From contig CALWBV010000005.1 in the NCBI GenBank assembly GCA_944376205.1, positions 1 to 64,000 on the forward strand: a stretch of DNA of 64,000 nucleotides. The letters are read 5' to 3'. The notes below the pieces were generated by a model that had not been told where the DNA came from, searched no databases, and was given only the letters and a program-made list of their open reading frames with translations. Shown piece after piece: positions 49,803 through 60,206 of this stretch. The stretch is from an uncultured Christensenellaceae bacterium. GTDB lineage: Bacteria > Bacillota > Clostridia > Christensenellales > UBA3700. A program made the translations under genes and the position numbers. The first letter of the stretch is position 1. Every line of letters starts with the position of its first letter.

Positions 49803-51920
49803 ATGTACGTTATTAAAAAGGATGGAACAAAAGAAGAATACAACGTTCAGAAAGTCGTTACGGCAGTCAATAAATCGGCTTTCCGCGCGCTTGTCAAATT
49901 CAGCGATGAAGACATTCAGTTTATCTGCGATTTCGTCAACAAAAAAGTCGAAGGCATGAACAAGGAGTTCATTACCATCAGCGAAATGCACAACATCGTA
50001 GAATATGCGCTCGAATCGCTCAACCCTGCAGTTGCAAAAAGCTATAAGGATTACCGCAACTACAAGCAGGACTTCGTTCATATGCTCGACGAAGTTTATA
50101 AGAAAAGCCAGGCAATCATGTATATCGGAGATAAGGAAAACTCCAACTCCGACAGCGCTCTCGTTTCCACCAAAAGAAGCTTGATTTTCAATCAGCTCAA
50201 TAAAGAACTTTATCAGAAATTCTTCCTCACAAAAGAGGAATTGCAGGCTTGCCGCGACGGCTATATCTACGTACATGATATGTCTGCGCGCCGCGATACA
50301 ATGAACTGCTGTCTTTTTGACGTTGCCACCGTACTCAAAGGCGGTTTTGAAATGGGCAACATCTGGTACAACGAACCCAAAACTCTCGACGTTGCGTTTG
50401 ACGTAATCGGCGATATCGTACTCTCTGCCGCAAGTCAGCAGTACGGCGGTTTTACCGTACCCCAAGTAGACAAAATTCTCGAACCCTATGCAGAAAAGAC
50501 ATACAAGAGACAGTATGACAGATACGTTTCACTCGGACTTTCTCCCGAAAAAGCCGAAGAAGAAGCTATCAAAGACGTAAGAAAAGACATGCTTCAGGGC
50601 TTCCAAGGTTGGGAATATAAATTCAATACCGTTGCTTCTTCGAGAGGCGATTATCCTTTTATCACTATCACCGGCGGACTCGGAAGATCGCGTTTTGCCA
50701 AGATGGCAAACATATGCATGCTCGAAGTAAGAAAAGGCGGTCAGGGCAAAAAAGAATGCAAAAAACCCGTTCTCTTCCCTAAAATCGTCTTCCTCTACGA
50801 CGAAAATCTCCACGGTCCCGGCTGTGAACTCGAAGACGTATTCGAAGCAGGTCTCGAATGCTCGGCAAAAACCATGTATCCCGACTGGCTGTCTTTGACA
50901 GGCGAAGGATACGTTGCAAGCATATACAAAAAATACGGCGAAGTAATCTCCCCTATGGGCTGTCGTGCTTTCCTCTCGCCTTGGTATGAAAGAGGCGGCA
51001 TGTACCCCGCTGACGAAAACGATAAACCCGTATTCGTAGGCAGATTTAACATAGGAGCCGTAAGCTTGCATCTTCCCATGATTTACGCAAAGGCAAAACA
51101 AGAATCCAAAGACTTCTACGAAGTGCTTGATTACTACCTCAATCTTATCCGTCAGCTTCACTTGCGTACCTATGAGTACCTCGGTGAAATGAGAGCTTCC
51201 ACCAACCCTCTTGCTTACTGCGAAGGCGGTTTCTATGGCGGACACCTCAAGTACAGCGACAAGATTGCTCCCCTTCTCAAAGCCGCAACTGCTTCTTTCG
51301 GCATTACGGCGCTCAACGAGTTGCAGGAAATTCACAATAAAAAATCTATTGCCGAAGACGGTCAGTTCGCACTCGAAGTCATGGAATACATCAACAAGAA
51401 AGTCAATGAATTCAAAGACGAAGACCACGTTCTCTACGCTCTTTACGGAACCCCCGCAGAAAGCCTTTGCGGACTCCAGATAGAACAGTTCAGAAAACAG
51501 TTCGGACTCGTCAAGAACGTCAGCGACAGACCTTATGTTACCAACTCTTTCCACTGTCACGTTACCGAGGATATTTCCCCTATTCAGAAGCAGGACCTCG
51601 AAAACAGATTCTGGAACCTCATGAACGGCGGCAAAATACAATACGTCAAATATCCTATCGATTACAACAAGGACGCTATCCGTTCGCTTATCAGACGTGC
51701 TATGAAAATGGGCTTCTATGAAGGCGTAAACCTCTCCCTCGCATACTGCGACGACTGCGGTCACCAAGAACTCAGCATGGACGTATGCCCCAAGTGCGGA
51801 AGCAAAAACCTTACAAAAATCGAAAGAATGAACGGTTACCTCTCTTACTCCAGAGTAAAGGGTGATACCAGACTCAACGCCGCTAAAATGGCAGAAATAG
51901 CAGACAGGAAGAGTATGTAA
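49803..51920 (+). CDS. nrdD: Anaerobic (class III) ribonucleoside-triphosphate reductase
   Basis: This 705-residue glycyl-radical enzyme makes deoxynucleotides without oxygen. An N-terminal ATP-cone (about 1-90) gives dATP control. The catalytic barrel includes HDMSARRDTMNCCLFD near 158-173 and the LHLRTYEYLGEMRASTNP block. A zinc site CDDCGHQ plus CPKCGS lies near 648-667, and the glycyl-radical loop is RMNGYLS near 678. The start follows TGGAGATGATATT. NrdG, its activase, follows two bases later. Tandem NrdR boxes upstream imply repression when dATP is high. Confidence 0.95.
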   Translation: MYVIKKDGTKEEYNVQKVVTAVNKSAFRALVKFSDEDIQFICDFVNKKVEGMNKEFITISEMHNIVEYALESLNPAVAKSYKDYRNYKQDFVHMLDEVYKKSQAIMYIGDKENSNSDSALVSTKRSLIFNQLNKELYQKFFLTKEELQACRDGYIYVHDMSARRDTMNCCLFDVATVLKGGFEMGNIWYNEPKTLDVAFDVIGDIVLSAASQQYGGFTVPQVDKILEPYAEKTYKRQYDRYVSLGLSPEKAEEEAIKDVRKDMLQGFQGWEYKFNTVASSRGDYPFITITGGLGRSRFAKMANICMLEVRKGGQGKKECKKPVLFPKIVFLYDENLHGPGCELEDVFEAGLECSAKTMYPDWLSLTGEGYVASIYKKYGEVISPMGCRAFLSPWYERGGMYPADENDKPVFVGRFNIGAVSLHLPMIYAKAKQESKDFYEVLDYYLNLIRQLHLRTYEYLGEMRASTNPLAYCEGGFYGGHLKYSDKIAPLLKAATASFGITALNELQEIHNKKSIAEDGQFALEVMEYINKKVNEFKDEDHVLYALYGTPAESLCGLQIEQFRKQFGLVKNVSDRPYVTNSFHCHVTEDISPIQKQDLENRFWNLMNGGKIQYVKYPIDYNKDAIRSLIRRAMKMGFYEGVNLSLAYCDDCGHQELSMDVCPKCGSKNLTKIERMNGYLSYSRVKGDTRLNAAKMAEIADRKSM

Positions 51921-51922
51921 TT

Positions 51923-52411
51923 ATGCGATATCACAACATTACGAAAGACGATATGCTCAATGGCGACGGATTAAGAGTCGTACTTTGGGTTGCAGGTTGC
52001 ACGCATAAGTGCAAACAGTGTCAGAATCCCATCACTTGGGACATCAACGGCGGTCTGGAATTCGGCGAAAGCGAGAAAAAAGAAATTTTTGACCAGCTCG
52101 ACCAATCCTATATATCGGGTATAACGTTCTCGGGAGGAGACCCTCTCCACCCTCAAAACAGACAGCCCGTATACGAACTCGCAAAGGAAATCAAAGAAAA
52201 ATACCCTCATAAGACGATATGGCTCTATACAGGTTTCCTTTGGGAAGAAATCAAGGACTTGCCGATAATCCCCTACCTCGACGTATTGGTAGACGGAGAA
52301 TTCAAGATAGATCTTCTCGATCCTCAACTTCATTGGAAAGGTTCGAGTAATCAGCGTGTAATAGACGTACCCGCTACTATAAAAACAGGCGAAGTCGTAT
52401 TGCATGCCTGA
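51923..52411 (+). CDS. nrdG: Anaerobic ribonucleotide reductase activating protein
   Basis: This 162-residue radical SAM enzyme generates the glycyl radical on NrdD. The iron-sulfur motif CTHKCKQC (CxxxCxxC) lies at about 27-34, the SAM-binding GGDPL near 74-78, and the N-terminus MRYHNITKDDMLNGDGLR is typical of the family. Length is normal. It is coupled to nrdD, two bases downstream, and the operon ends at a strong terminator (52428-52455). Confidence 0.95.
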   Translation: MRYHNITKDDMLNGDGLRVVLWVAGCTHKCKQCQNPITWDINGGLEFGESEKKEIFDQLDQSYISGITFSGGDPLHPQNRQPVYELAKEIKEKYPHKTIWLYTGFLWEEIKDLPIIPYLDVLVDGEFKIDLLDPQLHWKGSSNQRVIDVPATIKTGEVVLHA

Positions 52412-53133: not shown

Positions 53134-53703
53134 ATGATTATAGCTTCAATAAAAATACCGATGGACAGATTTGACGAAATAAAACTCAATATCAAGAAAA
53201 AACGAATGATACTTCTCTCGAAATCCAGCGAATGCCTTCTTCCCTTGCAAGAGGAAATATCTTCATGCGATAAAAAAACGGTAGTAGTATGGGCTTTCTC
53301 CTTCGCCGAAGAAGCTGTCGATTTATTGTCTTTACGCTATCCACGAGAAGAAGCGCCGAGAGAAGCGTTGATACTCACCAAACTATGGGCGCAAGGCAAA
53401 GTAAAGATGCCGGAAGCAAAACGTGCGATTCTCGCCTGTCACGGTCTTGCAAAGCGTTTGACTTCTTCAGAAGATATTGCCCTTTGTCATGCAGTAGGAC
53501 AAGCACTGGGCGCTGTACACGCAAAAGGACACGCAATAGGATTCCCGATATACGAACTCACTTCAATAGTAAGAAAGTACGGTATCGATAACTGTATAGA
53601 AGCATTTGACAAAAGACTGGCAGAATATACTCAAAGACTTCAAGCGTTTGCCGCAAGTCGTAAAGCCGACGAATACGAATGGGCAAAATTCTTTACAGAC
53701 TGA
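53134..53703 (+). CDS. Imm5-like putative immunity protein
   Basis: This 189-residue helical protein matches the pattern of the Imm-5-like putative immunity domain: WAFSFAEEAVDLLSLRYP (about 50-67), PREALILTKLWAQGKVKM, then AILACHGLAK and the AVGQALGAVHAKGHAIG block at about 122-138 with His residues. Despite the family name no toxin gene is nearby, and similar stand-alone genes are frequent in Bacillota. No ribosome site precedes the ATG, which follows a terminator hairpin by eight bases; an ATG at 53161 is an alternative start. Function is unproven. Confidence 0.6.
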   Translation: MIIASIKIPMDRFDEIKLNIKKKRMILLSKSSECLLPLQEEISSCDKKTVVVWAFSFAEEAVDLLSLRYPREEAPREALILTKLWAQGKVKMPEAKRAILACHGLAKRLTSSEDIALCHAVGQALGAVHAKGHAIGFPIYELTSIVRKYGIDNCIEAFDKRLAEYTQRLQAFAASRKADEYEWAKFFTD

Positions 53704-53865: not shown

Positions 53866-54378
53866 TTACTTCTTTTTAGTGGTTGAGCCGAAACCTCCGT
53901 CTCGCTTTTCGCTTGCGTCGTCATCGAAAGTAATGCCGTACTCTACGAAAATACCCTGTGCAAAGCCTTCGCCTGCTTTTATGCTTACGCTCTTACCTTC
54001 GTTGGAATCGTTGGTTATCTTGATAAAAATATGTCCTTCGTTGGACGAACCGTAATAATCGCTGTCGATTATTCCGACGGTATTGTTGAGCTGAAGTCTG
54101 TACTTGAATCCTAGTCCGCTTCTGGGGTAAACTTTGAGTACCCAATTGTCGAGAATTTTCACTCTTATTCCCGTGGGAATTTTTGCAGTCTGTCGGGGCA
54201 AAAGATCGATATCCACAGGCGCATAGAAATCGTATCCCGCCGATCCCGCAGTCGCTCTTTTGGGCAATTTGATACTGTCGTACACGGCTTTGGAATCGTA
54301 CATATCGCCGTAAGTATCTTTGAAGTCCTTGTCAAATTGTGAGAATGACACTTTCTCGAATTGTGCTACTCTTTGCAT
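53866..54378 (-). CDS. dut: dUTP diphosphatase
   Basis: This 170-residue trimeric dUTPase hydrolyses dUTP to dUMP, keeping uracil out of DNA and feeding thymidylate synthesis. The five family motifs are visible: AGSAGYDFYAP (motif 1), YPRSGLGFK (2), NTVGIIDSDYYG with the catalytic Asp (3), GEGFAQGIF (4) and RDGGFGST at the C-terminus (5). A 20-residue loop in the middle and about 35 extra N-terminal residues make it slightly longer than the E. coli enzyme. The start at 54378 is chosen for GGAG six bases upstream; that site overlaps an alternative ATG at 54390. Confidence 0.93.
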   Translation of the reverse strand: MQRVAQFEKVSFSQFDKDFKDTYGDMYDSKAVYDSIKLPKRATAGSAGYDFYAPVDIDLLPRQTAKIPTGIRVKILDNWVLKVYPRSGLGFKYRLQLNNTVGIIDSDYYGSSNEGHIFIKITNDSNEGKSVSIKAGEGFAQGIFVEYGITFDDDASEKRDGGFGSTTKKK

Positions 54379-54490
54379 AATCTTCTCCATATGAAATAGT
54401 TTTTTTTTAGTTTGATGTTCTTGCGAACTTTTTATTACAAGTTATACTGATTTATGTAATGTTTTAACGCGATTCTTATAAGCGTTAAAA

Positions 54491-55435
54491 TCAATAGAAA
54501 GTTGCGAGCTCCTGCTCTGGCTTGTCGGTTTTGTGAATTTCCAATGCTTCGAATACAGGTCCTACGCCCTCATAAACGTTGTGACGTTTGAAGTGAATTT
54601 TGCCGGTAAGCATGATCCAATCTCTTTTTTTAAGTGCGATATCCTGCTTGTATTCGCATACGAATGCACCGTAAAAAATATCCGCTTCGCAACATGTCAT
54701 GATATGCCTGCCTACGACGATGGTTTTGGGCGGCAATGTGTTGTCAACTGCGACGATACCTCTGAATTTAACCGTCTTGCCTTCGTACTTTTTACCGTCC
54801 TCGACAAGATCTCTGTAAAACTCCGCATAGTCCGTATCTTTAATCTCTATCACATCTGCGTTGATATCGTAAGGCAAGGGGTCCTGAATATTGTCAGGCT
54901 CGACGTGACCGTCCTTGTATTCGTAAAGTATGTCTATCCTCTTGCCTGCCGCTCTGACTATCTTGTGAAACTCGAGTTTGTTGTATGAGTTGTCGAATCT
55001 GTTGAATATTATCGCTTCGCTCACTTGCATTTTATCAAAAGTGAGCTGCCTCATATTTGCGTTGTAATTCATAAAAGTCGTAGCGTCGGCAAGCATGAGC
55101 GTTTGCGCAAGCACCCAATTTTCGGGCATGGCGTCGAGAAATTTTCCCACTTCGCTCATACCGTTGTATTCTACAATTACTCGCTGCGCTCCGTATTTTT
55201 TCTCAAGTACCGTAAGCATGCTAGGGTTGATATCGTCAACCTCTGCATATTCTATATGAACGTTGTTTCCGCCGCCTGCGAAATATTGCGGCTTATACTC
55301 CTCTTCGCCCTCTTCGAATACGAGAAGAAGAGTTTTTTCTCCTTCGTTGAAGCGGTCGTCCGTCATCATTTCCTGAATAAATTTTGTCTTACCGCTCTCC
55401 AAAAATCCCGTAAAAAGATATACCGGTACTTCCAT
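54491..55435 (-). CDS. Atypical G3E GTPase with DUF1980-like C-terminal domain
   Basis: This 314-residue protein starts with a G3E (CobW/COG0523) GTPase-like domain: Walker A GFLESGKT (10-17), a Walker B-like RVIVEYNGM (85-93) and a base-recognition NRFD (145-148). The family's metal motif CxCC is missing. Residues 215-300 resemble the C-terminal domain of YcgQ/TIGR03943 (DUF1980) proteins, with GRHIMTCCEADIFYG giving two adjacent cysteines (248-249). The start at 55435 follows AAAGGACGGATT. It lies 23 bases after a second G3E GTPase gene, so they are one operon. A metal-homeostasis role is inference. Confidence 0.75.
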   Translation of the reverse strand: MEVPVYLFTGFLESGKTKFIQEMMTDDRFNEGEKTLLLVFEEGEEEYKPQYFAGGGNNVHIEYAEVDDINPSMLTVLEKKYGAQRVIVEYNGMSEVGKFLDAMPENWVLAQTLMLADATTFMNYNANMRQLTFDKMQVSEAIIFNRFDNSYNKLEFHKIVRAAGKRIDILYEYKDGHVEPDNIQDPLPYDINADVIEIKDTDYAEFYRDLVEDGKKYEGKTVKFRGIVAVDNTLPPKTIVVGRHIMTCCEADIFYGAFVCEYKQDIALKKRDWIMLTGKIHFKRHNVYEGVGPVFEALEIHKTDKPEQELATFY

Positions 55436-55458
55436 AGTCAATCCGTCCTTTTATCTTC

Positions 55459-56646
55459 TCAAAGCAAAAAGAGTTTTGCAAGCTTTTCTTCGTCGAGTTT
55501 GCAGCCTATCACGCAAATTCTGCCGATTACTTCGCTGCTACCCGTTCTGACATCTTCTTCGCCGGGAACAAAGTCAAAGTGTATCCACTTTCCGTCCGTA
55601 CCCTGAACAATGCCTTTAGCTCTCAAAATAGTGCCGTATTCGCCGCTGTTGAGAGCTGTGAGCATCTCATTGATTTGATCTTGTGTATAAGAGTTGACAG
55701 TCTCTCTGCCCCAGCTTGAGAATACTTCGTCGGCGTCATGACCGTGATGGTGATGATGGTGACAGCACTCGCCGTCATGGTGATGATGTTCATGATCTTC
55801 GTCATGGTCATGATGGTGGCAGCACTCGCCGTCGTGGTGGTGATGTTCGTGCTCCTCGTCATGGTGATGATGGTGACAGCATTCTCCGTCATGATGATGT
55901 TCGTGTTCCTCGTCATGGTCATGATGGTGACAGCACTCGCCGTCATGGTGGTGATGTTCGTGTTCCTCGTCATCGTCATGGTGATGATGATGTCCGCATA
56001 CGGGACAGATATCTTCATCCTCTTGCATCTTCTTTATCTCTGCTTCGAGAGAGGATATGTTGTTCATAGCCTCAAAAAGTTTTTCTCCTTCAAGTTCTTC
56101 CCAAGGAGTAGCGACAATTGTCGCTTGAGGATTGAGACTCTTGACGGTATCGAGACAGAATTGCAATTTATCTTTGTCGATACCGGTCGTATGGCTGAGT
56201 ATTATGCACTTTGCTTCTTCTATCTGATTCTTATAGAATTCACCGAAGTTCTTCAGATACATCTTGCATTTTTTAGCGTCTACTACCGTAGTGAGAGAAG
56301 AAACTTCGCTGTCGGGAAGATTTGCCGAAAGCACCGCTTTAAGAACGTCGCTGAGTTTTCCGACACCCGACGGCTCGATAAGGATTCTGTCGGGAGCATA
56401 TTCCGTATATACTTTATTGAGCGCTTTTTTGAAGTCGCCTACGAGCGAACAACAAATACAACCGCTATTCATTTCGTTGATCTGAATACCTGCTTCCTTG
56501 AGAAAACCGCCGTCGATACCTATGTCGCCGAACTCGTTTTCGATAAGGACTATTTTCTGTCCTTTCAACGCAGAGGAAAGAAGTTTTTTGATAAGGGTCG
56601 TCTTTCCCGCACCCAAAAAGCCTGATACTATATCAATCTTTAACAT
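55459..56646 (-). CDS. G3E GTPase (CobW-type metallochaperone) with His/Cys repeats
   Basis: This 395-residue protein has Walker A GFLGAGKTT (9-17), ENEFGDIGID, the metal motif GCICC (62-66) and EPSGVG (91-96), the signature of COG0523 zinc chaperones. The base-recognition NKxD is replaced by SHTT (151-154). Residues 214-303 form a metal sponge: CPVCG, then four repeats of about 19 residues, each with a His cluster and DGECC. A CobW C-terminal domain follows (about 305-395). The start at 56646 follows GAGAGGTGAT. It probably hands zinc or another metal to client enzymes. Confidence 0.9.
   Translation of the reverse strand: MLKIDIVSGFLGAGKTTLIKKLLSSALKGQKIVLIENEFGDIGIDGGFLKEAGIQINEMNSGCICCSLVGDFKKALNKVYTEYAPDRILIEPSGVGKLSDVLKAVLSANLPDSEVSSLTTVVDAKKCKMYLKNFGEFYKNQIEEAKCIILSHTTGIDKDKLQFCLDTVKSLNPQATIVATPWEELEGEKLFEAMNNISSLEAEIKKMQEDEDICPVCGHHHHHDDDEEHEHHHHDGECCHHHDHDEEHEHHHDGECCHHHHHDEEHEHHHHDGECCHHHDHDEDHEHHHHDGECCHHHHHHGHDADEVFSSWGRETVNSYTQDQINEMLTALNSGEYGTILRAKGIVQGTDGKWIHFDFVPGEEDVRTGSSEVIGRICVIGCKLDEEKLAKLFLL
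55735..55995. repeat. In-frame tandem repeats of about 57 bases
   Basis: Inside the G3E GTPase gene, four near-identical units of 54-57 bases encode the His cluster plus DGECC. GTGATGATG and CATGGTC words recur on the plus strand. Unit-to-unit identity at DNA level suggests recent expansion and a potential for length variation between strains. Confidence 0.8.
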
Positions 56647-56860
56647 TTTATCACCTCTCGTGCGATATTGCCGCACAAATCTTATTTACATCTTGTCAAA
56701 AGACGGCTGAACCGTACTTTTCGGACTTTATATATTTTAGCACTTTTGCCGTTAATTTTCAAGGCTTTTACCTGCGTGTAAAATATTTTATATTTATTTT
56801 ACGCTTTAGATTATTACCCGATCAAAAACGATTTATTTGTACAACGATTTCCATACAGCA

Positions 56861-56888
56861 AAAGACCCCGACGGTTTTCGGGGTCTTT
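56861..56888 (-). terminator. Terminator of GH30 operon
   Basis: A 10-bp stem AAAGACCCCG/CGGGGTCTTT with an eight-base loop lies 11 bases after the first listed GH30 gene. The U-tract is short. Confidence 0.7.
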
Positions 56889-56898
56889 GAGTATTTTG

Positions 56899-58581
56899 TT
56901 ATTTTGAAAATACATACGTCGCTATCGACATTGCGGGAATCGTAACGCTGCCCGTATTCTCGTATTCGCTTGTCTTCCAGTTTTCTTCTTCTGTCGTCAA
57001 AACTTCATAGACGTTAGCGTAACCGCCCTTGATATTTATCTTGTGCGATCTCGTGCTGTCATTGATTACCACAAGCGCAATACTTCCGTCCGTCTTCTCG
57101 AATGCCACGCACTCAACGCCGTTGAAGCCGAGAGAATCGCTGTAACTTGCTCCGATACGCACGCTTCCCGATTCTATAAACTTTGAGAAGTGTCCCATTG
57201 CGTAATATCTCTTGTATGTCTTGATGACGTCTTCGCCGTCGATATTGTTCCAATAGATAAGTCCGTCTTCGTAATCCCCCTTGGACATCGACAGCCAGTA
57301 ATTCCAGTTTACGGCGTCAAGCATAGTGAGGTCTCGCATGATAACCTGCGCCGAGAATATTCCCATATTTATCGTGGGGTCGATGCCGGGCTGAAGCACG
57401 CAATATTCCGTGATACTTATCTTAAGGTCGGAATAATATTTATCCATATATTCACTGAAAAGCGTACGGTGGAATTTAGAGGTATCTGCGCCGTAGGAAT
57501 GTGCAGATATGTTGGTAACGCTTTCAAAGAAAGGATATTTTTCAAACTCCGTCATATATTCGTTTACTCTTGCAGACGAAGCAACCATCATATATTTGCC
57601 GCACTCGAAAATATCCATTTCGAAGGATGTTCCGTTTTCTTCGTTGAAAGCCGTAAGCGACTCGTAAAATTGCTGATAGAATTTTGCAAGCACATCGGGC
57701 TCATAGTGACAGCCCTCCTGCGAAGCGTCCGCTCCGCCCCACTTCCATTGAGGCTCGTTGACGGGGCTGATAATAACCTTGATATTCTTATCATACTTGC
57801 AGATTATGTTTTCATAAAGATAATCGGTAATCAAAAGCAGATAGTCGCTAAATGCTTCGTAACATTCCTCTTTGAGATTATCGACGTTGATTTCCTCACC
57901 GTGAGTCTTGCCATTGAGAGTCATGGTATAGTGAGGAGAGTTGGCAAAAAATACGACTTGCTCGATATTTCCCTTGGAAAGCGCAAGGTCAAAAAGTTCT
58001 CTTACCGCCGCATCTCTCGTAAAGTCGTAGTTACTCTCGTCCTTGAATACGGAATAATCGCCCGTAAAGTTTTCCGCCACGAAAAAGCTCTCCGCTCCTC
58101 TTAAATCGTCGCCGTATGCAGCAACTTCAACGCCGCCTCCGCCGATGTTGTATCTGAACGTATTGAGTTTAAGACCGCTGTCACCGTAAAGCATTTCCAT
58201 TGCCTCGTCTTTGAGCTCGGGATTATCGAGTTTTCCGAAGTCCTGATATATCCAAGCCGACGACGCTCCGAATCCTTCCATTGTCTGATAAGTCTTTTGC
58301 GTATCTAAAATTATGGTCGTCGTACCGTAAACTACGGCTGCGGCATAAATACCGAAAAAAGCACCTACCGCAATTATCACCGACAATATGACGGCAATTG
58401 CAATGACGAGTTTTTTCTTCTTACTTTTTGTTTTGGGGGTTTTAACGTCTTGAGACGTTTGATAAGCATTATCTTGCTGAACCATGCTCGGCTCCTCTGA
58501 CGACTTCAATGCGTCATCGCTTACTGCGTCCTGCTCCGATTGAATACCACTCGTATTAATAATGTCTTTTTGCTCTTCCAT
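56899..58581 (-). CDS. Membrane-anchored GH30 glycosidase (copy 1)
   Basis: This 560-residue enzyme has a 57-residue charged cytosolic N-terminus, one membrane helix at about 58-83, and an external glycoside hydrolase family 30 domain. MEGFGASSAW (101-110), RYNIGGGG, the acid/base Glu in SPVNEPQW (E276) and the nucleophile Glu in SITEYCVL (E392) are all present. A beta-sandwich ends the protein. The family cleaves beta-1,6-galactan, beta-1,6-glucan, glucuronoxylan or glucosylceramide; the subfamily cannot be fixed by eye. The start follows AGAGGAAAATT. It is a tandem paralog of the gene at 58671-60206. Confidence 0.85.
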   Translation of the reverse strand: MEEQKDIINTSGIQSEQDAVSDDALKSSEEPSMVQQDNAYQTSQDVKTPKTKSKKKKLVIAIAVILSVIIAVGAFFGIYAAAVVYGTTTIILDTQKTYQTMEGFGASSAWIYQDFGKLDNPELKDEAMEMLYGDSGLKLNTFRYNIGGGGVEVAAYGDDLRGAESFFVAENFTGDYSVFKDESNYDFTRDAAVRELFDLALSKGNIEQVVFFANSPHYTMTLNGKTHGEEINVDNLKEECYEAFSDYLLLITDYLYENIICKYDKNIKVIISPVNEPQWKWGGADASQEGCHYEPDVLAKFYQQFYESLTAFNEENGTSFEMDIFECGKYMMVASSARVNEYMTEFEKYPFFESVTNISAHSYGADTSKFHRTLFSEYMDKYYSDLKISITEYCVLQPGIDPTINMGIFSAQVIMRDLTMLDAVNWNYWLSMSKGDYEDGLIYWNNIDGEDVIKTYKRYYAMGHFSKFIESGSVRIGASYSDSLGFNGVECVAFEKTDGSIALVVINDSTRSHKINIKGGYANVYEVLTTEEENWKTSEYENTGSVTIPAMSIATYVFSK

Positions 58582-58670: not shown

Positions 58671-60206
58671 TTATTCGCTGAAAATATACGTGACAATTGA
58701 TTTTGCGGGTACCGTAACGCTCGAACTGTTTTCGTATTCGCTGATTTCCCAATTCACGTCCTGCGTAGTCAAAATTTGTTTGACATTGTTATAACCGCCT
58801 TCGATTTTTATCTTGTGATCTTTAGAGCTGTCGTTGATCACCACAAGTGCGATGCTGCCGTCCGTTTTTTTGTATGCAACGCATTCCACACCGTTGAAGC
58901 CGAGAGAATCGCTGTAACTTGCGTCTATTCTCACGCTGCCCGCCTCGATATATTTTGAGAAATGACCCATTGCATAATATCTCTTGTATGCATTGATAAC
59001 GTCCTTGCCTGCCTCGTCCTTATTCCAATATATAAGACCGTCCTCATAATCGTAGACCGACATAGACAACCAGTAATTCCAGCTTACCGCATCTATCATC
59101 GCAAGGTCACGCATAATAACCTTAGCCGAATAAAGCCCCATATCTATCGAAGTGTCTATACCGCCTTCGAGTACGCAGTATTCGGTTACGTTGACTTTCA
59201 TATCGGGGTAATTTCTGTTCATGTAGTTGTCGTACAAGGTACGCAGAAGTTTATCGGTATCGGTTCCGTAAGAATGTGCGGATATATTGGTAACACTCTC
59301 AAAGAAAGGATATTTTTCAAACTCTTTCATGTACTTATTGAATTTCGTATCAGTAGATTTGATAAGCTGATAATTTCCGCTTTCGAAAATATCCATTACA
59401 AAGTTAGTGCCGTATGCCTCGTTAAAAGCCGTAAGCGACTCGTAAAATTGCTGATAGAATTTTGCGAGCACGTCGGGATCGTAGTGACAACCTTCCTGCG
59501 TAGCGTTTTCTCCGCCCCAATCCCATTGAGGTTCGTTGACGGGACTGATGACTATTTTAATATCGTCGCCGTATTTTTTGACAACGTTTTTATAGAGATA
59601 ATTGGTAATTACCAAAAGATAATCGCTGAAAGCCTCGTAACATTCAGGCTTGAGATTGTTTTGCTGAATCACGTCGCCGTGCGTCTTGCCGCTTACCGTC
59701 ATGGTATAATGAGGTGAATTGGCAAAGAATACTACTTCTTTGATGTTACCTTTGGAAAGCGCAAGTTCAAAGAGTTCGAGAACTTCTTTGTCCTTTGTAA
59801 AATCGTAATTGGATTCGTCCTTAAAGACAGAATAATCTCCCTTGAAGTTTTCTGCCACGAAAAAGCTCTTTGAACCTCTCAACGGATCGGGGTATTCGAA
59901 AACTTCGCTTCCTCCGCCGCCGATGTTATATCTGAACGTATTGAGTGCAAGACCGCTGTCGCCGTAAAGCATTTCCATTGCCTGCTCTTTAAGCTCATCG
60001 TCCTCGATTGCTCCGAAACTTTGATATACCCATGCCGATGACGCTCCGAAACCTTCCATAGTCTGATATGTTTTTTGCGTATCGAGAGTAATAGTGGTCG
60101 TACCGTAAATAACTGCAAGCGCATAAATACCCAACGATGCGCCGATTATCAAAGCAACTGCAAGAAGTCCTACAATTGAAATCAAAAAGACTTTTTTTCT
60201 GCTCAT
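58671..60206 (-). CDS. Membrane-anchored GH30 glycosidase (copy 2)
   Basis: This 511-residue paralog shares most of its catalytic domain with copy 1 (same MEGFGASSAW, RYNIGGGG, SPVNEPQW with E225, and TEYCVL with E342) but has only a short MSRKK start before its membrane helix at about 6-33. The helix lacks a clear signal peptidase site, so it is probably an N-terminal anchor. The start follows GCGGAGAAATTT, and a promoter lies at 60240-60268. The copies differ in loops such as EYPDPLR, so they may have different substrates. No transporter or sugar-binding gene is next to them. Confidence 0.85.
   Translation of the reverse strand: MSRKKVFLISIVGLLAVALIIGASLGIYALAVIYGTTTITLDTQKTYQTMEGFGASSAWVYQSFGAIEDDELKEQAMEMLYGDSGLALNTFRYNIGGGGSEVFEYPDPLRGSKSFFVAENFKGDYSVFKDESNYDFTKDKEVLELFELALSKGNIKEVVFFANSPHYTMTVSGKTHGDVIQQNNLKPECYEAFSDYLLVITNYLYKNVVKKYGDDIKIVISPVNEPQWDWGGENATQEGCHYDPDVLAKFYQQFYESLTAFNEAYGTNFVMDIFESGNYQLIKSTDTKFNKYMKEFEKYPFFESVTNISAHSYGTDTDKLLRTLYDNYMNRNYPDMKVNVTEYCVLEGGIDTSIDMGLYSAKVIMRDLAMIDAVSWNYWLSMSVYDYEDGLIYWNKDEAGKDVINAYKRYYAMGHFSKYIEAGSVRIDASYSDSLGFNGVECVAYKKTDGSIALVVINDSSKDHKIKIEGGYNNVKQILTTQDVNWEISEYENSSSVTVPAKSIVTYIFSE

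Follow-up and report, generated by a model that had tools for sequence, protein, structure and literature searches.

Two adjacent genes in the window, the 64,000-nucleotide stretch of DNA from a gut clostridial genome analysed here, encode a real and conserved two-gene partner system. The first protein, P1, is a COG0523/YciC-type G3E GTPase that carries the metal motif GCICC. The second, P2, joins a G3E-fold P-loop domain that is devoid of this motif to a DUF1980_C domain. The system is a variant of the COG0523 kind in which complementarity between the partners is half right: it holds for the metal motif and fails for the guanine motif. P1 and P2 are tentatively viewed as an obligate two-protein metallochaperone module, with zinc the most probable metal. 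This view is based on the pairing of the genes, their conservation, the domain make-up of the proteins and the relatives located in zinc-type operons; we infer zinc as the metal, contact between P1 and P2, metal hand-over and nucleotide choice.

Organization of the locus

The P1 gene (55459..56646, reverse strand, ORF from the ATG at 56646, 395 aa) and the P2 gene (54491..55435, reverse strand, ORF from the ATG at 55435, 314 aa) are the first and second genes of an operon and are separated by 23 bp on the same strand in the window ORF list. On re-reading of the window, the ORFs, strand, coordinates and motifs given for both proteins in the preliminary description are correct. A promoter-like site (TTGAAA-17-TAAAAT with a TG, 56734..56762, reverse strand) precedes P1 as a consensus match only, and on visual inspection several genomes of the genus show a similar site ahead of their P1 genes. 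A terminator-like hairpin in the sequence (56861-56888) lies between P1 and the upstream glycoside hydrolase gene. No known Zur/Fur box of the B. subtilis type, from which clostridial boxes may differ, was found when the regions preceding P1 were scanned in 114 loci. Of these regions, 45 contain inverted repeats versus 31 expected from shuffles, with no common sequence seen.

The neighborhood includes other genes. Just upstream of P1 are two tandem GH30 glycoside hydrolase paralogs (56899-58581 and 58671-60206), both with apparent N-terminal membrane anchors, and GH30-like C-terminal ends seem to precede P1 in some genomes of the same genus. On the other side are a dUTPase gene (53866-54390), a neighboring ORF with an Imm5_like match that is a putative immunity protein (53134-53703), and two ORFs (49803-52411) that by sequence resemble the anaerobic ribonucleotide reductase NrdD and its activase NrdG.

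The metal-motif protein P1

P1 matches the Pfam families cobW (130.1 bits, cut-off 20.7, 8.7e-38) and CobW_C (23.2 bits versus a cut-off of 22), as well as E. coli YjiA (4e-27), a verified GTPase (PMC2770081). The CxCC motif, stated for all COG0523 members (PMC2770081), is present in the window P1 as GCICC (residues 62-66; 56449..56463, reverse strand) along with the Walker A sequence GFLGAGKTT. In the P1 proteins of 114 pairs, GCICC (114/114), ENEFG, EPSG and GFLGAGKT are all invariant. The window P1 is without an intact NKxD, a feature that is loose in COG0523, and has SHTT in its place (residues 151-154; 56185..56196, reverse strand). E. coli YjiA has TKTD; thus, Ser or Thr in place of Asn is normal in COG0523. 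SHTT itself is a local state, the P1 base motif across pairs being S/T-H/R-T-D/T/A/G/Q. P1 also has a His/Cys-rich insert encoded by a tandem DNA repeat detected by TRF (55743..55987, reverse strand; 57/111-base period with 4.4 or 2.2 copies). Among the 114 pairs, the insert contains as few as 2 and as many as 68 His residues; thus, the putative metal store varies fast.

The CxCC-less partner P2

P2 is composed of a G3E fold (residues ~1-185; cobW, 29.0 bits, cut-off 20.7) followed by DUF1980_C (residues ~191-308; 76.1 bits, cut-off 25.9). The match to NCBIfam TIGR03943 (72.4 bits) is under the 88.8 cut-off and includes only the C-terminal part. Motifs of the window P2 are GFLESGKT, EYNG, NRFD (residues 145-148; 54992..55003, reverse strand) and TCCEAD, with no CxCC. 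The CxCC motif is found in 0 of 125 P2 proteins, and the motif loop itself is missing in the alignment; P2 is, thus, considered G3E-related and not a member of COG0523. The Walker A motif and the Walker B Glu (ExxG) are retained, while in the base motif N-R is found in 112 of 114 and the final Asp in 43 of 114. CooC, an ATPase, retains only the Asn of the base motif (PMC9164220); thus, GTPase activity of P2 is not a given.

The DUF1980_C domain carries the motif GRHIMTCCEADI (residues 242-253; 54677..54712, reverse strand), of which the G, R, C, C and D positions are invariant (62/62). The same CC..D signature is common to P2 and the DUF1980 proteins of permease operons. Because CC..D is invariant, P2 is probably not metal-blind, and a P2 without any metal role is unlikely. 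On sequence grounds, P2 probably has a metal site of its own with CC..D as the candidate, although these residues could instead be structural.

This structural option is part of the strongest competing explanation, which is rather unlikely: as a pseudo-GTPase with a regulatory or scaffold role, P2 would dock on P1 to control the GTPase of the latter, CC..D would be structural or redox-active, and metal would never reside on P2. The degenerate base motifs of both proteins, the missing CxCC loop and the scarcity of His in P2 (median 4) are consistent with such a role, whereas the retained Walker A and ExxG and the sharing of CC..D with the DUF1980 proteins of permease operons argue against it.

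Conservation of the pair

Co-occurrence was scored in 291 genomes of the class Clostridia from full-length or long hits (E-values up to ~1e-38 for P2 and ~1e-79 for P1). The compact P2, as found in the window, is present in 54 genomes, its P1 in 53 and both in 53 (Fisher p ~1e-57); a chance pairing is, thus, dismissed, and the pair is found in about one-fifth of Clostridia genomes. Where both occur, the two genes are almost invariably neighbors. The sole genome with P2 and no P1 is 65% complete and has a truncated hit. Within the genus, P2 is in all 17 sampled genomes (including that of the window), and P1 adjoins it in each genome whose contig extends that far. The proposal that the genes are a conserved operon pair of functional partners is borne out by this co-occurrence (53/54) and by the parallel trees described below.

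Gene order is also conserved. P1 precedes P2 in 142 of 148 loci where both are recognised, with P2 first in 5 and the genes divergent in 1; this set takes in 14 permease-type relatives, one of which is the divergent locus. All 5 loci with P2 first are of one family (f57), in which the pair outlasts the order swap. No conserved third gene was found beside the compact pairs, the next clusters being antisense ORFs or scattered housekeeping genes.

Loci with only P2 are mostly cut by contig or locus ends. Two others are second-copy paralogs and are counted against obligate pairing: a lone P2-like copy in genome G210 (L178:2927-3892) with the decayed base motif FFSAD, and a second P2 paralog (L176:1559-3666; DUF1980_C and cobW) that is partnered with a different COG0523 protein (GYLGSGKT, CICC, SKCD). 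The lone copy is followed by a short ORF whose C-terminus is rich in His and Cys.

In the window genome, P1 and P2 are the only COG0523-like genes found. The two other cobW matches of this genome are FtsY and Ffh and were rejected as alternative G3E partners.

Permease-type relatives and the zinc context

The P2 search also recovered permease-type operons (L186-L198 and L230) in which P1 is followed by a G3E::ArsP_1 fusion and then by DUF1980. The G3E domain of these fusions is without CxCC, and in three operons (L194, L195 and L198) the G3E domain and permease are separate genes. The fullest operon (L193) reads znuA-znuC-znuB-Fur-P1-(G3E::ArsP_1)-DUF1980. Fur adjoins the pair in L186-L189 and L197, znuB is found in L190 and L197, and at one compact pair (L055) a divergent znuA is adjacent to P1. 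Certain genomes, G197 and G278 among others, have both the compact and permease types. ArsP_1 and ZnuA are not detectable in the window genome; thus, the compact pair works without them.

In the phylogenetic tree, all CxCC-less partners, compact and permease-type, are on one side (100/99), with the compact P2 proteins forming one group (94/96) nested beside the permease-type ones (97/91). The compact P1 proteins are nested within the permease-type P1 proteins, mirroring the nesting of P2. A locus from outside the class (L224) groups with family f41 on both the P1 and P2 sides of the tree, as joint transfer predicts. With the root placed at the midpoint and the direction of change deduced on that basis, the compact P2 most simply arose by loss of the permease and joining of DUF1980_C to the G3E domain. 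As the permease-type relatives have G3E::ArsP_1 and a separate membrane DUF1980, a membrane-linked zinc system appears to have been reduced to a soluble form in the compact P2.

It is improbable that the pair serves another metal (Co, Ni, Mn or Fe) in place of zinc, or acts in the insertion of a metal cofactor. Several metals are served by COG0523 members (PMC2770081), ZnuA is missing from the window genome and no Zur box was found in the 114 upstream regions; by contrast, znuABC and Fur-family genes are beside the relatives and znuA is beside one compact pair. Zinc and a relay are the best-supported function, as we infer from operon context and motif conservation.

Base motifs and the complementarity claim

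The preliminary description proposed that each protein has the motif the other lacks, with P2 supplying the guanine reading lost by P1. The metal half of this complementarity is real and old, as GCICC is always in P1 (114/114) and never in P2 (0/125). The guanine half did not hold. Of the 114 pairs, 71 have a P2 without the final Asp and 72 a P1 without it; the residue is found in P1 only in 33, P2 only in 34, both in 9 and neither in 38. An early tally of 114 pairs had only 3 with Asp in both, which rose to 9 with wider sampling; examples are TRTD with NRCD (L165-L167) and SRTD with NRCD (L173 and L174). In most pairs both base motifs are degenerate, with S/T-H/R-T-x in P1 and N-R-x-x in P2. 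A crude Fisher test detects a negative association of the two Asp residues (p = 0.009, 114 pairs), whereas a Pagel-type model on the concatenated tree finds no dependence beyond independence (LR 4.1, 4 df, p = 0.39). This is the outcome of the statistical test across genomes, and NKxD complementarity is rejected as a rule. Unpaired COG0523 proteins of the same class are also degenerate (SKxQ/SKxE, e.g., SKSQ and SKLE); thus, the Asp is lost irrespective of pairing, and a degenerate base motif characterizes the branch.

A division of labor in which P1 handles metal without reading guanine and P2 reads GTP for the complex is, therefore, highly improbable. The window and most relatives of its genus do fit this division (SHTT with NRFD), as does the crude Asp trade-off. 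It is countered by the pairs with Asp in neither or both proteins, by the result of the phylogenetic model, by P1-type proteins that keep both motifs (GCICC with SKTD in L019; CICC with SKCD in the partner of the L176 paralog) and by the invariant Walker A and EPSG of P1.

A mirror case of P1 is noted in a group of unpaired COG0523-like proteins (L200, L201, L203-L208, L212, L213 and L222), in which GSIFC or GSVFC replaces GCICC and nearly all have a canonical NKxD. One gene of this group (L200) adjoins corrinoid/ferredoxin-type genes.

Structure predictions

The AlphaFold2 model of P2 (pLDDT 95.7, pTM 0.80) has a G3E domain similar to HypB (Z 13.3) and YjiA (Z 13.2). The C-terminal domain is predicted to be beta-rich with weak OB-fold matches (CST complex chain, MCM N-domain and tRNA_anti-like), and matches in a viral structure library are mostly OB-type or unclear with low scores. 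By sequence search, YjiA was the only solved structure found for P2, at low score.

The P1-P2 complex was modeled on a locus (L068) in which the genes are in frame and the single TAA between them was read as Gln, using an alignment of 93 rows (29 fused, 32 P1-only and 32 P2-only). The read-through fusion model has a mean pLDDT of 83.8 and a pTM of 0.64, with no PAE and a linker that biases the arrangement; the CxCC loop and His region are of low confidence. Structural look-up of the model aligned almost only the P1 half. For a fusion of two unrelated halves of comparable length, we roughly estimate a pTM of ~0.5; the modeled value leans towards a preferred P1-P2 arrangement and is no proof of it. 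Although this model is not decisive, co-regulated proteins that act separately, with no complex or hand-over, are very unlikely, as plain co-regulation usually leaves a weaker trace than the near-absolute co-occurrence and common tree history of this pair.

Proposed mechanism

In the proposed metallochaperone module, P1 would be the metal-loading G3E GTPase, with the CxCC site and the His/Cys-rich store. P2 would be the divergent partner, belonging to a distinct branch of G3E, with its nucleotide pocket (Walker A, ExxG) kept and its OB-like DUF1980_C domain, by way of the invariant CC..D, as the candidate acceptor. The two G domains may pair in a nucleotide-dependent manner in the fashion of SIMIBI proteins (HypB dimers, Ffh-FtsY), and nucleotide turnover by P1 would move metal off CxCC, either onto the CC..D of P2 or onto a client common to both. 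A more specific form of this scheme, which is doubtful, is a zinc relay between twin NTPases: P1 would dock on the CxCC-less G3E NTPase, in a manner reminiscent of SRP and its receptor, and zinc would pass from CxCC to CC..D. In the related operons, this NTPase would be membrane-anchored through the ArsP_1 permease, while in the window type it would be a soluble protein with the DUF1980_C acceptor in the same chain.

Comparison with known systems

Studies of COG0523 chaperones usually deal with single proteins, for which the partners are either client enzymes or unknown. P2, which is found next to P1 across the class, carries a candidate metal site and has a permease-fused relative, would provide a concrete acceptor and would tie three poorly understood families (COG0523, ArsP_1/DUF318 and DUF1980) into one zinc-linked module. 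No description of the P1-P2 pair was found in the literature covered on the component families and G3E heterodimers, a coverage that leaves out many subscription papers and preprints.

P1 shares its cobW domain, GCxCC, His-rich stretch and CobW_C with the COG0523/YciC-type zinc metallochaperone GTPases (YjiA, ZigA and ZagA), and some relatives of P1 likewise adjoin znuABC and a Fur regulator; P1 differs in its degenerate base motif and obligate CxCC-less partner. P2 shares DUF1980_C and the CC..D signature with the TIGR03943/DUF1980 proteins that work with an ArsP_1 (DUF318) permease (YcgQ-YcgR and ScfB-ScfA), and the permease-type relatives carry both of these genes in the same operon as P1. 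By contrast, P2 has neither the transmembrane DUF1980 N-domain nor a permease, and carries its DUF1980_C in one chain with a G3E domain. The Ffh-FtsY and HypB/UreG SIMIBI dimers are likewise paired related NTPases with a G-domain fold like that of P2 (Z ~10-13), but the P1-P2 pair has the metal motif on one partner only and is known here from its genes. The ArsA-ArsB system, in which a SIMIBI NTPase energises a permease, resembles by analogy only the relatives that have an ArsP_1 permease fused with a SIMIBI NTPase domain; it is of another NTPase branch and another permease family.
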